In this document: in pieces, positions 7,014-30,700 of the stretch
Layout: the number at the start of each line of letters is the position of its first letter
How positions within the stretch are numbered: position 1 is the first letter of the stretch
Source: a virus
IMG/VR virus record: IMGVR_UViG_3300032246_000338
Span: 1-40,613 of that record
Length of the DNA: 40,613 nt
Direction: 5' to 3' (one strand)
Position numbers and translations under genes: made by a program
Notes under the pieces: generated by a model
Databases searched by the model: none
Told to the model about the DNA's origin: nothing
Seen by the model: only the letters and a program-made list of their open reading frames with translations

Positions 7014-7274
7014 CTATCCTCTGTTGAATGACGGGGCATAGACTGGTTCTATGCTCGCGTTGACTAGATTCCTAGCCCATTCTACGGCTTTCTCCATAGT
7101 ATCAAATGGACCATAGATTACTGTGCTATCCATATCTATTTGAGTTATGGTAATCCAACTGTTCACCATTTGCCCTGATAAGGGCTCGATGATGGTTATG
7201 GATTTGTTTGTGTCGGAATTTTTCTGTCCGTTTAAACGGATGGTATTATTTGCCGAAGTCGAAGTGCTTGTCAT
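7014..7274 (-). CDS. Hypothetical protein downstream of the amidotransferase, 86 aa
   Basis: The preferred start is ATG 7274, inside the end of the amidotransferase gene, preceded by AAAGGA. The upstream part of the open frame reaching 7427 only shadows the amidotransferase. The N-terminus is low-complexity and includes NTIRLNGQK, the residues encoded by a palindrome copy. The C-terminal part (YGPFDTMEKAVEWARNLV) looks like a small alpha/beta domain. It may be a third component of the amidoligase/amidotransferase set, from position only. Confidence 0.5.
   Translation of the reverse strand: MTSTSTSANNTIRLNGQKNSDTNKSITIIEPLSGQMVNSWITITQIDMDSTVIYGPFDTMEKAVEWARNLVNASIEPVYAPSFNRG
7226..7240. repeat. 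Palindrome copy 2 (TCCGTTTAAACGGA core)
   Basis: Palindrome core within the first codons of the 86-aa gene, flanked by TTTCTG as in copy 3. Translated on the minus strand it reads RLNG followed by QK. Confidence 0.85.
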
Positions 7275-8097
7275 AGTACCATGATTCCTTTCGTTGAGCC
7301 ATCTTAGCCTTGTCATGTGATGGTGTCCAGCATAGGCAGTCATCTTCGTATGCACCATAGCAGTCATAGCATGTGTAGCACATCTCGCAGTAGTAAGGAT
7401 TGGAATCCTCATATGCGATAACGCCACATCTACTACACTCGTTGGTGTCTATCAACCCTGCTGAGCATCCTTCTTTATCCTTGGCTGGTGTAGACCAGTA
7501 GGTACTAGATGCCCATGTAGTTGCTGTAGGCACATAAGGCTTGTAGCCATCGTTAGACCACCACATGCCCTCATTGTCCCAATGACCAGCACTCTCGTTG
7601 ATGATATAACATTGCTCCTTGGCGTTAGGGTCTAGGGTGAACACTACAATCTTGCTACCTAGTGACCACTTGCTGACCATAGTCCATACATGGTCATCAT
7701 CTAAGGCGGTAACACCACCCATGGAAGGCAAGGTATCCTCTGCAAAGATGCGCGTATCGCTACGCTTATCGCTAGGTGCTATCTTGATATCTAAGATACC
7801 ATTGTGAGCAAGGTAAGTATCTACATTGCTAGGCACCTTGAATGGGTGACAGTTGTCATCATTCTTGACACCATGCGTAGCATAGCGAGCATGGAACATA
7901 GCATAACTAGACGGGTACTGCTTGCGTACTTCTAGGAACTGTTTGATGATTTTCTTGGATGACATGCCACGACCTGTGACAATGCCATTAGGTGTAATAA
8001 CTGCAAAGCCAAAGCCATGCGGATTATTACAGGATGCACACTCAAGGTCTTTCTTCTTGGGTGTTGAGTTAGGTGATGCTACGACGAGTAGACACAT
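7246..8097 (-). CDS. Class II glutamine amidotransferase-like Ntn hydrolase with zinc-ribbon tail
   Basis: 283 aa if started at ATG 8097, which places the nucleophile Cys at residue 2 (MCLLVVA), as class II amidotransferases need; ATG 8106 is the other option. The family-like blocks HGFGFAV, FHARYATHG (68-76) and AHNG (97-100) fit glutamine binding and the oxyanion hole. Residues 221-256 are a Cys-rich array (CSRCG...CEMCYTCYDC...CLC), probably two or more zinc ribbons. It should release ammonia from glutamine for a partner ligase. It follows the amidoligase by one base, so the two probably work as one enzyme. Confidence 0.75.
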   Translation of the reverse strand: MCLLVVASPNSTPKKKDLECASCNNPHGFGFAVITPNGIVTGRGMSSKKIIKQFLEVRKQYPSSYAMFHARYATHGVKNDDNCHPFKVPSNVDTYLAHNGILDIKIAPSDKRSDTRIFAEDTLPSMGGVTALDDDHVWTMVSKWSLGSKIVVFTLDPNAKEQCYIINESAGHWDNEGMWWSNDGYKPYVPTATTWASSTYWSTPAKDKEGCSAGLIDTNECSRCGVIAYEDSNPYYCEMCYTCYDCYGAYEDDCLCWTPSHDKAKMAQRKESWYYDKHFDFGK

Positions 8098-8098
8098 G

Positions 8099-9331
8099 TT
8101 ATGCACTTACTTTCTGTCCGTTTAAACGGACACTAGGTTCAATGAGTCGCGCCATGCGCTCATTCAGTTCAGGGTACAAGTCTGCATGAGACTCGATATA
8201 GGTCATGAAGGAGTCGGTGCTTAGCCCACCTTCTTTGACTTGATTGACGGACATTACTCGGGTGAACTCAACGCTGGCATGCGCCAAGTCTATATGGGAT
8301 TTGATGGTATCAACCTTGGTAGTACCGCGGAAGATGCGCATCTCTAGGGTTGCTTGGTTCTGTGTATTGACCGCAGAGTATCGGTCACTACGGGTGCCAT
8401 GCTGAATCTTCTCGCGGAAACTACGCCATGTCTTGTAGTTGCGAGAGCCATTCTCATCACGCTCACCATTCCACGCTGATTGCATGACATCGTCGAACTT
8501 AGCCCAACGGCTAGATGAGCGACCAGCGAGAGTCTCGTAGAACACTTGATTGCTATAGACAAGGTTCAAGAATCGGTGCATGTGAGCACCGCCATTGAAT
8601 CCTGTGCGTGAGATGTGGATGTGAACACCGCATGTACCCGTACCCCACGACCTTACTTGATAGGTTTCTCGAAGACCATTCAACACTCTGAATAAATCTT
8701 CTGCTTGATTCTTGTAGAAGTCATGCGACATTGGATGCGTAACCAACTCGAACCCATGATTGAGTGAGCCGTCATGCTTGAGGTACGCCAAGTCCATGCC
8801 CTCCAGTTGGTAAGCATACTCGGATGCCTCACCATAATTCCTACTGCCAGCCTCTACCTCTACCTCAATGCCAAAGAACAAGCGTTCATTCTTATCGGTA
8901 CTGTGGAAGATAGGGTCAGGTCGGTAAGAGTAATCGTGGATAACTCTACTTGAATTACATGACTCGCAACCACTCTCGAAATATTGGTCACATTCATCAC
9001 AGAAGATAGCATTGTTGTCAGCGCAGATATTGCACCAGTAACAGCCCCTATCTTCGATATAGTATGTGCCTTCTGTGCCCCATTCCTCACAGGAATCACA
9101 CCAGTTAGCAGCACGCTCTGTACATGACAGGCACCAACGCGAGCATTGGTCTACCATGCACCAATCGTCATTCTCTGTGCCTATGTCATCACAGCGTTCA
9201 CATATGTAAGCGCAGTCATCACACACCCTATCGTTACTATATGAAACTGTACATGAATTGTCAGAGTTAATGCCAGTTGAACATACCACGCATGTGAACT
9301 CTGAATCATCTTCTGTTTCTATCATAACCAT
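8099..9331 (-). CDS. Amidoligase (glutamate-cysteine-ligase fold) with N-terminal zinc-ribbon array
   Basis: 410 aa (ATG 9331; ATG 9325 is also possible). Residues 14-125 contain 20 cysteines, mostly CxxC pairs, suggesting four or five tandem zinc ribbons. From about 152 the catalytic domain shows FFGIEVEVE, LKHDGSLNHGFELVTHP, TCGVHIHIS and TQNQATLEMRIFRGT, the order of the Amidoligase_2/GCS-fold ligases that form amide bonds using ATP. With the adjoining amidotransferase it should amidate or conjugate a carboxylate, perhaps on peptide, wall or protein substrates. A palindrome lies in its leader and another in its last codons (RLNGQKVSA). Confidence 0.8.
   Translation of the reverse strand: MVMIETEDDSEFTCVVCSTGINSDNSCTVSYSNDRVCDDCAYICERCDDIGTENDDWCMVDQCSRWCLSCTERAANWCDSCEEWGTEGTYYIEDRGCYWCNICADNNAIFCDECDQYFESGCESCNSSRVIHDYSYRPDPIFHSTDKNERLFFGIEVEVEAGSRNYGEASEYAYQLEGMDLAYLKHDGSLNHGFELVTHPMSHDFYKNQAEDLFRVLNGLRETYQVRSWGTGTCGVHIHISRTGFNGGAHMHRFLNLVYSNQVFYETLAGRSSSRWAKFDDVMQSAWNGERDENGSRNYKTWRSFREKIQHGTRSDRYSAVNTQNQATLEMRIFRGTTKVDTIKSHIDLAHASVEFTRVMSVNQVKEGGLSTDSFMTYIESHADLYPELNERMARLIEPSVRLNGQKVSA
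8116..8131. repeat. Palindrome copy 3 (GTCCGTTTAAACGGAC)
   Basis: Perfect 16-bp palindrome at the 3' end of the amidoligase gene, encoding RLNG; 19 bases before the amidotransferase start. Confidence 0.88.
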
Positions 9332-14377: not shown

Positions 14378-16144
14378 ATGGCATTATCAATGGAACAAGT
14401 AGCAGCACGCGTTGAAGCGTTGCGCTACCGCAACCACGAACGAGATGCTCGTAACCTTAACGTACTTGCAGTCCGTAAGGGCCAGATTGCCTCAGTTTAC
14501 CCTGAGTTCTTCCCAGAGGGCGTAGATGCCAACGTAGTAGCAAACTTTATTGATGTGGTTGCACGCGACCTTTCTGAGGTCATGGCTCCACTCCCAGCAA
14601 TCAACTGCTCTGCTGCTAACTCTGTTAGCGATAAGGCTCGTACCTTTGCTGACAAGCGTACCCGTATTGCCTCTAACTACTTTGTCCACTCTGACCTATC
14701 GGTGCAGATGTACTCAGGTGCGGATTGGTATCTCACATATGGTTTTGTTCCGTTCATGATTGAACTGGACGAAGAAAGCAAGTTGCCGCGTATCCGCGTA
14801 GAAAATCCAATTGGGGCTTACCCAGAATTTGACCGCTACGGACGTTGTGTGGCATTTGCAAAACGCTATATGATGACCCTTGGAGAACTTGTTTCACAGT
14901 TTCCAGAGTATGAAACTCAAATCCTTGGCCGTGATGGATATAAGCAAGACCTGCATGCGCAGGTTGAAATGGTTCGTTATTACGACAAGGACCAGTCTGT
15001 AATTTATTTACCTAGAAAAGGTAATTTAGTTTTATCTAGCGCATTGAATCCAATGGGCAAGATGATGGTTGTCGTAGCGCGTAAGCCGTCTATTGATGGC
15101 GAGATGCGTGGACAATTCGACGACGTATTAGGTATTCAACTTCTCCGCAACCGTTTCGCCCTATTGGCAATGGAAGCAGCAGAGAAAAGTGTTCAGGCAC
15201 CAATCGTACTACCACAAGACGTTCAAGAACTCCAGTTGGGTGGAGATGCGGTTATTCGTACCTCCAACCCAGCGGGCGTTCGTCGTGTCGAATTAAACAT
15301 TCCACAAGGCGCGTTCACAGAAGCACAACTCCTTAACCAGGAACTTCGCTCAGGTACTCGTTATCCAGAAGGACGTTCTGGTAACATTGATGCAAGCATC
15401 GTTACAGGTCAAGGTGTACAGGCACTTATGGGTGCCTTTGATACACAGGTCAAATCAGCACAGGCAATCTTTGCTGCTGCTCTACGCGATGTTGTTTCTC
15501 TCTGCTTTGAAGTAGATGAGAAGATTTTTCCAATGGAAAAGACAATCCGTGGTGTTGACTCTGGTAGCCCATACGAGATTACATACAAGCCAATCAAGGA
15601 CATCAAGGGTGACTACTCTGCAGATGTCCGCTATGGCATGCTTGCTGGTCTTAACCCAGCACAAGGACTTATTTTTATGCTTCAGGCTCTTGGTGGTGGA
15701 CTCATCTCCAAAGATATGGCAATGCGTGAACTTCCATTCACCGTTAACGTAACTCAAGAACTTGAAAAGATTGAAATCGAAAACATGCGTTCATCACTGC
15801 TTAGTGGTATTACCGCAATGGCTCAGGGTATTCCGCAGATGGCCACACAAGGTGGAGACCCAGCATCTATCGTAACTAAGATTGCGGGAGTAATTTCTGC
15901 ACGTCAAAAGGGTCAAACCCTTGAAGAGGCTATTGCCAACGTGTTTGCTCCTCAGCAACCAGTTCCTCCTGCTGGTGCTGCAACTTCTCCTGTTGAGCAG
16001 CCGTCCCCTGTTCCAGGCGCGGCTCCAGTGGGAGGTTCTCCTCAAGGTTTAGCAGCACCTACACCTCCACCAGATTTACAAACAATTTTATCCACACTCA
16101 GTGGTAATGGCAAGGCTTCGGGACGAGTAACACTTAAGGGATAA
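14378..16144 (+). CDS. Portal protein
   Basis: 588 aa. Size, location directly after terminase, and segments such as NPIGAYPEFDRYGR, a hydrophobic stem region, and NQELRSGTRYPEGRSGNID with VTGQGVQALMGAFDTQ match actinophage/podophage portal proteins. It forms the dodecameric ring at one capsid vertex for DNA passage and tail attachment. The C-terminal 70 residues are Pro/Gln/Ala-rich and probably disordered inside the capsid. Confidence 0.88.
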   Translation: MALSMEQVAARVEALRYRNHERDARNLNVLAVRKGQIASVYPEFFPEGVDANVVANFIDVVARDLSEVMAPLPAINCSAANSVSDKARTFADKRTRIASNYFVHSDLSVQMYSGADWYLTYGFVPFMIELDEESKLPRIRVENPIGAYPEFDRYGRCVAFAKRYMMTLGELVSQFPEYETQILGRDGYKQDLHAQVEMVRYYDKDQSVIYLPRKGNLVLSSALNPMGKMMVVVARKPSIDGEMRGQFDDVLGIQLLRNRFALLAMEAAEKSVQAPIVLPQDVQELQLGGDAVIRTSNPAGVRRVELNIPQGAFTEAQLLNQELRSGTRYPEGRSGNIDASIVTGQGVQALMGAFDTQVKSAQAIFAAALRDVVSLCFEVDEKIFPMEKTIRGVDSGSPYEITYKPIKDIKGDYSADVRYGMLAGLNPAQGLIFMLQALGGGLISKDMAMRELPFTVNVTQELEKIEIENMRSSLLSGITAMAQGIPQMATQGGDPASIVTKIAGVISARQKGQTLEEAIANVFAPQQPVPPAGAATSPVEQPSPVPGAAPVGGSPQGLAAPTPPPDLQTILSTLSGNGKASGRVTLKG

Positions 16145-16146
16145 CA

Positions 16147-16713
16147 ATGACAACGCTAGTAGCAATCCAGGGTGACGGATGGTCGGTACTAGGATGCGAT
16201 TCAAGACTCAGTGATGAGCATGGTCGTTTTCAAATTGCAAAGACACCAAAAATAGTAGATAATAACGGTGTATTAATTGCGGGATGCGGCTCATCACGGG
16301 CCAGCAATATCTTGCATTATGGCTATGTACAACCTAAGCCAACAGTTAGAGAAGATTTAAACATTTACATGACAATGAAGTTTATACCGCAAATGCGTAA
16401 AAACTTTGTAGATGCTGGCATAGACATGAAAGAGGACGGCGATGTCGCACTTATTGATGGCGGATTCCTCATATCCGTCAAAGGGCAAGTTTTTTCGGTT
16501 TCTGAAGATTATTCGTGGGATACTGATATTCGTAACGTGTATGTCATGGGCAGTGGTGGCGATGTTGCCCTCGGTGCGTTGGCAGCGTTGGGTGTGGAAA
16601 AAGTAAAGACTATTAATCAAGCAGAGAACATTGTTCGTAAGGCAATTGCTATTGCAATCCAATATGACAATATGTGCTCTGAACCAATTCATATATTTAA
16701 ACAATACGCATAG
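16147..16713 (+). CDS. Proteasome beta/HslV-like Ntn hydrolase, candidate prohead protease
   Basis: 188 aa. After removal of Met it starts TTLVAIQGDGWSVLGCDSR, placing Thr at position 1 and Asp at 17, with Lys at 31 and 34 near the family position 33; GSGGDVALGALAAL resembles the helix after the proteasome substrate channel. These are the catalytic features of the N-terminal threonine hydrolases. It lies directly after portal where head-maturation proteases usually sit, and three bases separate the genes. It may cleave scaffold or capsid proteins, or act on host targets. Other Ntn amidases are possible. Confidence 0.78.
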   Translation: MTTLVAIQGDGWSVLGCDSRLSDEHGRFQIAKTPKIVDNNGVLIAGCGSSRASNILHYGYVQPKPTVREDLNIYMTMKFIPQMRKNFVDAGIDMKEDGDVALIDGGFLISVKGQVFSVSEDYSWDTDIRNVYVMGSGGDVALGALAALGVEKVKTINQAENIVRKAIAIAIQYDNMCSEPIHIFKQYA

Positions 16714-16721
16714 GAGTAAAC

Positions 16722-17207
16722 ATGGGTGGAAAAGGAAGCGGTGGCGCTAACGGCGGACCACAGTACAATCCAGCAAATGTTTCTGGTACTGGCGGAGCAG
16801 GACAAAGTGGTAACTATACTGGCTTTGGCTACGGCAAGAATCAAGAAGTAAATAACCAGCGTATACAGGGGAATCAAGCAATGGCATCTGCTCAAGCAGC
16901 AACACCATCTGCACCAGCAGAACCTTACGCAGGCGTTAACATGCCAAAACTAAACACACTCTTTGACCCAACTACACGCCCTAATGAACCAATCACAGCA
17001 GGTGTAGACTTTGGCCCTGGCCCAGGAAGTGAAGCACTCCCACAGGGATTGATGAACAATACTCGCATTGACGAGAATGCAAAGATTGCTGCGCAGTATC
17101 TACCAGATTTGGCAATGGCTGCTAGGTCTGCAGATGCTCCAGATTCATTTAAGAACTTTGTAAATTACCTCATCCAGAACAGTCAGAGTGCAGCACAGAA
17201 TGGTTGA
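16722..17207 (+). CDS. Gly/Ala/Asn-rich virion-region protein, 161 aa
   Basis: The N-terminal 60 residues are Gly/Asn-rich and disordered (MGGKGSGGANGGPQYNPANV). The C-terminus is helical (DENAKIAAQYLPDLAMAARS). Ribosome site AGGAG precedes the ATG. Probably a minor structural or assembly factor from its position; no family recognised. Confidence 0.65.
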   Translation: MGGKGSGGANGGPQYNPANVSGTGGAGQSGNYTGFGYGKNQEVNNQRIQGNQAMASAQAATPSAPAEPYAGVNMPKLNTLFDPTTRPNEPITAGVDFGPGPGSEALPQGLMNNTRIDENAKIAAQYLPDLAMAARSADAPDSFKNFVNYLIQNSQSAAQNG

Positions 17208-24789: not shown

Positions 24790-24909
24790 AATAGAATCCT
24801 GCATGGACCCATCGGCCCCATCAGCGTATTAGACCGATAGCAAGAGCCAACCTGGTTCCCCGACCAGCAATTGAGGCTTGCGACTACAACGAATAGAAGG
24901 GTGGTTGCT

Positions 24910-25398
24910 ATGAGCAACAACTACTGGGATGAAGAAGACGAAGACCTAGATACCGAAACAGAAACACCAATGGACGGAAGCGACCTCTTAAAGAAGTTGC
25001 GTAAAGCCAAGCGTGCAGATGAAAAGCGTATCAAAGACCTCACTGAGCAACTTGAGACATTATCCAAGGGGCAGCGTGAGCGTATCGTCAAGGAAACCCT
25101 AGAAAAGAAGGGTGTGAATCCAAAAGCAATACGTTTAGTCCTAAAGGACTTGGATGATGTTAACGAAGAGTCAGTGAGTAACTGGCTCGATGATAATGCA
25201 GACTTGTTTGGGCTAGAAGTACGCCAGGATGCGCCTGAAACGAATAACCAAAACCGCGCTGCATTACGTCAGCAGGACATGGTTACTCAGGGTGCAATAA
25301 CACCTGACAGAGCCGAAGATATGTCAATGAGGATTGATAATGCTAATTCAGCAGAAGAAATCATCAATTTGATTTATGGCTCACAAAACCAATCATAG
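24910..25398 (+). CDS. Scaffolding protein
   Basis: 162 aa from ATG 24910 (AAGGG upstream); the frame from 24871 is out of place. Very acidic N-terminus (DEEDEDLDTETETP), long helix KKLRKAKRADEKRIKDLTEQ that should form a coiled coil, helical C-terminus; directly before the capsid gene. All are typical of phage scaffold proteins that shape the prohead and then leave or are cleaved, possibly by the proteasome-like enzyme. The 120 bases upstream (24790-24909) hold no gene and show a weak ATCGG/CCGAT pairing. Confidence 0.8.
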   Translation: MSNNYWDEEDEDLDTETETPMDGSDLLKKLRKAKRADEKRIKDLTEQLETLSKGQRERIVKETLEKKGVNPKAIRLVLKDLDDVNEESVSNWLDDNADLFGLEVRQDAPETNNQNRAALRQQDMVTQGAITPDRAEDMSMRIDNANSAEEIINLIYGSQNQS

Positions 25399-29964: not shown

Positions 29965-29986
29965 GTAACTAACAAAGGTGGGGACA

Positions 29987-30700
29987 ATGGCACAAGAAAC
30001 AGTATCAATTGCATGGTGTGACAACGGCAACGTTGATGGCAAATTTATGCATGGCGTAGCAAACGTACTCCTTGAATCAGGAGTTAAGTTTGAATCTACT
30101 ATCCGTAGTTGTGGTAATCAGATTGCCCGACAGCGTGAGTTTGTAATCCGTCACTGGTACGAGAAAAGCAAGGCAGATTGGCTACTTTGGGTTGACTCAG
30201 ATGTAGTAATTAGTTCAGAAAAGTTTCTTAAACTTTGGAACAAAAAAGATAAGGTCAAGCATCCAATCGTTACTGGTGTTTACTTTACAACAAAAAATCC
30301 AGAAGAACCTTTAATGGTTCCACTACCTACAATCTTTAACTTTTCGGAACGAGAAGATGGCACGGTTAATATCAAGCCAATTCATCCAATGCCAAAAGAT
30401 AAATTTATTAGAGTAGATGCCGCTGGCATGGGATTCGTCTTAATGCACCGCAGCGTGGTAGATAAGATTGTTGAAACAGTACCAGATACTGCTATGTTCT
30501 TGGAGGCTGGAAGCGAAAAAACTTTTATCGGAGAAGACATATACTTTTTTGCCCTATGTGGCAAAGCAGGAATTGAAGTATGGTGTGATACATCAGCAAC
30601 TGTTCAGCATATGAAACGATTCTCATTTGATGAGCATTACTACGGAGCCTTCTTTGGCGCAGTAGAACAGAAGTCAAATTTAATATTACCAAAACGTTAG
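29987..30700 (+). CDS. GT-A-fold glycosyltransferase
   Basis: 237 aa from ATG 29987 with AAAGGTGGGG upstream (GTG 29978 is less likely). Shows an early IAWCDNG strand, RQREFVIRHWYE and the DxD metal/nucleotide-sugar motif in LLWVDSDVV (70-72), then FIRVDAAGMGFVLMHRSVVD and GEDIYFFALC, typical of GT2-type enzymes. It would attach a sugar to virion proteins (fibres or capsid) or host surface glycans. Its place just before the adaptor and fibre genes favours virion glycosylation. Confidence 0.82.
   Translation: MAQETVSIAWCDNGNVDGKFMHGVANVLLESGVKFESTIRSCGNQIARQREFVIRHWYEKSKADWLLWVDSDVVISSEKFLKLWNKKDKVKHPIVTGVYFTTKNPEEPLMVPLPTIFNFSEREDGTVNIKPIHPMPKDKFIRVDAAGMGFVLMHRSVVDKIVETVPDTAMFLEAGSEKTFIGEDIYFFALCGKAGIEVWCDTSATVQHMKRFSFDEHYYGAFFGAVEQKSNLILPKR

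Follow-up and report, generated by a model that had tools for sequence, protein, structure and literature searches.

Proteasome-like proteins have already been described in tailed phages. The phage proteasome homologues PPH, AAH and CPH belong to the group I proteins and have neither a known function nor a known partner (Fuchs, Alva and Lupas 2021, PMC8665760), and such homologues are also represented by the profile family PHROG_1040. The 2021 survey reported no genomic context suggesting a function and found no Actinobacteria-specific phage carrying AAH (PMC8665760). Salmonella phage pSal-SNUABM-04 carries HslV genes without HslU and, differing in this from the locus described here, encodes separate prohead proteases (PMC7823757). 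Finally, the phages LanE43AprE7 and LanE43AprF5 (hereafter E7 and F5) were isolated on Ca. Planktophila, and passages in the main text of the corresponding paper mention genes for the breakdown of host proteins (PMC10202952).

Here, we analyzed a window of 40,613 nucleotides, i.e., the whole stretch of viral DNA under study (IMG/VR virus record IMGVR_UViG_3300032246_000338, positions 1 to 40,613), in which a proteasome-like hydrolase gene directly follows the portal gene. What is new at this locus is a fixed slot beside the portal, repeated swapping of alleles, and natural relatives lacking the gene. Phage proteasome homologues, whose function is not known, are thereby given a consistent context, namely, the late-region slot after the portal.

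The hydrolase belongs to the proteasome superfamily

The ORF read-out gave the gene exactly the boundaries listed in Table 1, with a reading frame that opens with ATG ACA ACG (Met-Thr-Thr) and has no propeptide. Its product matched the Pfam Proteasome family (PF00227) over residues 2-182 with E=4.9e-6 and 26.7 bits, above the curated cut-off of 22.4 bits, and the PHROG_1040 "peptidase HslV family" with 1.8e-22. Comparison with proteasome and HslV had been suggested in a preliminary description of this DNA. While a search of PDB sequences with the single sequence was insufficient, giving insignificant matches only, a family profile built from 18 relatives matched the beta-proteobacterial proteasome homologue (BPH, 5ovu) best, at 1.2e-11 over nearly the whole length, followed by another BPH match (6e-11) and by HslV (2.4e-10). 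An AlphaFold model computed with 30 relatives as input (pLDDT 91.3, pTM 0.88) aligned with HslV in Foldseek (E about 1e-11) and with BPH 5ovu (TM 0.76), and VIA-align matched it over residues 2-188 to proteasome beta and to BPH (Z about 19-20), in agreement with a proteasome-type Ntn fold. Among viral models, the best match was a 37% identical protein (TM 0.88), and the second best was named HslV, from an uncultured Caudovirales phage. The Ntn-hydrolase first noticed at this position is thus a member of the proteasome superfamily, closest to the compact BPH/HslV group.

The protein also departs from each of these systems. Like the hydrolase, BPH (5ovs/5ovu, TM 0.73-0.76) has a compact subunit, a Thr1 and no known unfoldase; however, BPH is bacterial, and identity between the two is about 18%. 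With HslV (ClpQ), after which PHROG_1040 and annotated phage relatives are named, it shares the MTT start, the fold and the GSG..AlGA helix, but it scored far below the cut-offs of the NCBIfam HslV equivalogs (19.0 bits against 137 and 17.9 against 157.75). Moreover, no HslU-type AAA_2 unfoldase was found in the window or in 12 relatives by searches with positive controls, a partner from the host being possible. Unlike the bacterial 20S proteasome beta subunit, the hydrolase starts with MTT and has no propeptide; TIGR03690 was unmatched at E<=1, and a second relative of the gene, i.e., a candidate alpha subunit, was not found elsewhere in the record. PPH, at about 140 residues, lacks helix H2, whereas the 188-residue hydrolase has both helices, predicted at residues 50-59 and 71-89 of the AlphaFold model (PMC8665760 for PPH). 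Its closest annotated relative, the "ATP-dependent protease subunit HslV" of Actinomycetia phage DSL-LC01, is 34% identical, but its gene precedes the terminase by about 6 kb. A search of genome contigs for cellular relatives returned 12 pattern matches, none of which was confirmed.

Conservation of the active site and purifying selection both argue for a working enzyme. The N-terminal Thr, Asp17, Lys at about position 33 and helix segment singled out in the preliminary description are all present and are invariant, or nearly so, among 102 distinct homologues. Mature Thr1, Asp17, Ser18 and Lys34 occur in 102/102, Lys34 corresponding to proteasome Lys33 shifted by one because of a one-residue insertion, while the oxyanion Gly47 and the Gly-x-Gly of the GSGGD..ALGAL segment are each kept in 101/102. 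The GSGGDVALGALAAL segment of the hydrolase lies at residues 135-148. Within the window's own type, dN/dS values of 0.03-0.08 show that purifying selection acts on the gene and, together with the conserved active site, make it very probable that the hydrolase is active and useful. Since the protein starts with MTT and has no propeptide, the host methionine aminopeptidase should remove the Met and expose Thr1, with Asp17, the Lys33 equivalent and Gly47 completing what would be the catalytic site.

The gene occupies an exchangeable slot after the portal

The position between the portal and the virion/scaffold genes also stands as first described (Table 1): the portal stop is at 16144 and the hydrolase ATG at 16147, leaving a gap of 2 nt, and the scaffold (24871) and capsid (25428) genes sit 8-9 kb downstream. 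Given the Shine-Dalgarno-like motif within the last portal codons and this position, translational coupling of the hydrolase to the portal is likely. The order of the genes (terminase, portal, small genes, Gly-rich type ORF, giant protein, tail genes, scaffold-like gene, capsid) is like that of the Beephvirinae, and the portal shares 80% identity with its counterparts in two Planktophila phages and about 45% with those in Streptomyces Beephvirinae. The window also encodes WhiB, which fits an actinophage; as a query against genome contigs, WhiB returned one Acrocarpospora locus only. The source is a phage of freshwater actinobacteria.

Table 1. Features of the window discussed in the text, with their supporting matches
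Feature	Coordinates	Strand	Evidence
Amidoligase_2 and adjoining class-II glutamine amidotransferase-like ORF	8099-9331 and 7246-8106	- and -	PF12224, 7e-9
Portal protein, 588 aa, directly upstream of the hydrolase	14378..16144	+	PHROG_104, 3e-29
Shine-Dalgarno-like TTAAGGG, within the portal's last codons, just 5' of the hydrolase ATG	16134..16140	+	Read from sequence
Proteasome-like N-terminal threonine hydrolase, 188 aa	16147..16713	+	PF00227, PHROG_1040, AlphaFold/Foldseek/VIA, active-site conservation, dN/dS
Gly-rich ORF, 161 aa, after the exchangeable slot	16722..17207	+	PHROG_8200
Giant putative virion protein, 1685 aa	17419..22476	+	PHROG_10618
Putative scaffold protein	24871..25398	+	PHROG_7813, weak Gp46 scaffold match, homologues in hydrolase-minus relatives
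Major capsid protein (Phage_capsid_3), 318 aa	25428..26384	+	PF13252, 7e-13; PHROG_1357, 2e-79

The content of the slot was surveyed in 79 loci (77 retrieved by searching with the portal, and in addition E7 and F5), of which 75 extend far enough past the portal to be informative, and the hydrolase was scored as present when it lay within about 100 nt of the portal. It occupied the slot in 65/75 loci, with an ORF of 75-79 aa instead in the other 10/75 (about 13% without hydrolase). When the survey was widened to 153 distinct portals, 97 were accompanied by the gene and 56 were not, although sampling of this set is biased, partly since the hydrolase itself had served as bait for some of the loci. 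When mapped on a quick portal tree, hydrolase presence required six changes, at least five of them forced by supported branches. Five hydrolase types, mutually less than 50% identical, were found in the slot; E7 and F5 carry a divergent hydrolase that is 27% identical to the window's and lies in the same place after the portal. Furthermore, portals that are 88-90% identical can bear hydrolases just 29-40% identical and, given the slow evolution seen within types, such divergent hydrolases beside near-identical portals point to replacement by recombination.

In relatives lacking the hydrolase, the slot held small ORFs only and no other protease was found in it. The hydrolase was not found elsewhere in the hydrolase-minus records searched, including a 39.9-kb contig and two complete Streptomyces phages; many contigs are fragments, such that these records may be incomplete, though in every one of them the slot could be read directly. 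Both Streptomyces Beephvirinae checked were without the hydrolase, and a gene similar to the Gly-rich ORF comes after the slot in both hydrolase-bearing and hydrolase-minus relatives. Taken together, these data show that the hydrolase gene is exchangeable accessory cargo, whose gains, losses and swaps do not follow the head genes.

The 75-79 aa ORF (MATPRKRT..YSKLDQYSIELHEFYKSLRRAGFTVDNALYILSAK) stands in the hydrolase's place in relatives such as L150 (6501-6737).

Head maturation probably does not require the hydrolase

The preliminary description, having seen no serine-type head protease, had proposed that the hydrolase could be an unusual maturation protease or a phage version of a host degradation enzyme. 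Its observation was borne out: Pfam scans of most of the larger ORFs and whole-record S78 and ClpP profile searches revealed no serine head protease in the window, and no S78 or ClpP-type protease was recognisable in 13 genomes with or without the hydrolase, with positive controls (in a Peptidase_S77 search, the controls gave no signal). A head-maturation or virion-processing protease that trims the scaffold, capsid, portal or giant protein during assembly would agree with these negative searches, with the place of the hydrolase beside the portal in the late region, to which it is probably coupled, and with its strictly kept active site. However, relatives with scaffold and capsid proteins 71-82% identical to those of the window do without the hydrolase, and this reading was therefore dropped as the leading view. 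In one such relative, the capsid shares 77% identity with that of the window across residues 1-317; in another, the capsid is 81% identical (first 250 residues) and the scaffold 71%, with similar N-termini. The Streptomyces Beephvirinae checked, whose portal, scaffold and capsid are homologous to the window's, likewise lack the hydrolase. The type of giant protein does not track the hydrolase either (clusters are mostly lineage-specific, with two mixed clusters), and E7 and F5 combine 92% identical hydrolases with giant proteins that have no detectable similarity to each other. Elsewhere, Psychrobacter phage D'Alembert encodes a hydrolase homologue in addition to an annotated head protease beside the portal, homologues in other phages are found among early or metabolic genes (ThyX, MazG, RNR, tRNAs), and our literature search found no paper tying proteasome-like enzymes to phage head maturation. 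A role of the hydrolase in trimming head or other virion proteins is thus very unlikely.

Since homologous head genes occur without either the hydrolase or an S78/ClpP protease, heads of this type most likely mature with no dedicated protease that can be recognised. The hydrolase is probably not needed for head maturation, and finding the "protease position" empty does not show that an enzyme is missing. This corrects a tempting inference, as standing in the position of the head protease does not make the hydrolase a head protease. The earlier interpretation is therefore divided: a replacement maturation protease is opposed by homologous heads without the gene, by its swapping and by homologues located away from head genes, while the other option, the phage counterpart of a cellular degradation enzyme, agrees with a proteasome-superfamily protein that is closest to BPH/HslV and of a kind known in phages.

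Proposed role of the hydrolase

We regard as probable that the gene encodes an accessory, late-made, ring-type threonine hydrolase without an unfoldase of its own, carried in an exchangeable slot and not needed for head maturation. Coupling to the portal, as suggested by the position of the gene, indicates that the protein would be made late. It may then assemble into a ring peptidase and, since no AAA_2 unfoldase is encoded, such a ring would most likely act without one of its own, degrading unfolded proteins or peptides of the host or the phage at this late stage. Against the accessory view, the slot is part of the late head region, and in most cases it is filled again by a member of the same superfamily, which hints at a function linked to virion production. 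In a further reading, which we consider quite unlikely, actinobacterial phages would have adopted this hydrolase, of which at least five divergent forms can replace one another, for virion production, using it as an optional protease for processing or carrying it in the virion; if true, no earlier case is known of a proteasome-like enzyme acting in tailed-phage particles. Packaging in the virion and injection, after which the enzyme would act at an early stage on proteins of the host, for example those of defence or stress, would suit a late-region position beside the portal and putative internal virion proteins, and the repeated swapping of divergent types might be taken to resemble host-adaptation cargo. 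Nevertheless, PADLOC gave no match to known defence models, and we consider this scenario unlikely.

Amidoligase/glutamine-amidotransferase pairs are known in other phages, where a role in cell-wall modification has been suggested, and the window carries such genes (Table 1). An amidoligase was present in 17/22 long records with the hydrolase and in 0/10 without, which could suggest a specific processing enzyme or a connectase-like protein ligase, perhaps tied to this pair, but the counts include only two phylogenetically independent pairs. Connectase does show that a proteasome-type fold can ligate (PMC8665760). However, isolates E7 and F5 break the association by carrying the hydrolase without the amidoligase, and in the predicted secondary structure, strands S3 and S4 are not separated by a helical insertion of the connectase type. 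The link to the amidoligase was thus set aside, and a ligase or specific processing activity appears highly improbable. For the favored late-made degradative hydrolase as for the alternatives, the isolates E7 and F5, along with natural relatives with and without the gene, make the function open to test.

Other variation in the late region

Several further differences were observed among the relatives. The giant protein after the slot belongs to several unrelated types among close relatives (e.g., the window, L086:8727-14021 and L087:18270-23405). The capsid protein occurs in forms of 318 aa and of about 400 aa with an insert near residue 250 (window, L292, L307 and L308), and these forms are mixed among close relatives independently of the hydrolase. 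In one relative (L130:3834-4274), the hydrolase has an in-frame internal deletion that leaves 146 aa, without the central strands or the region of the GSGGD helix, representing either a decaying copy or an assembly artefact. The late region of the window also contains a glycosyltransferase-like ORF at 29978-30700 (PHROG_34859, 1e-75).
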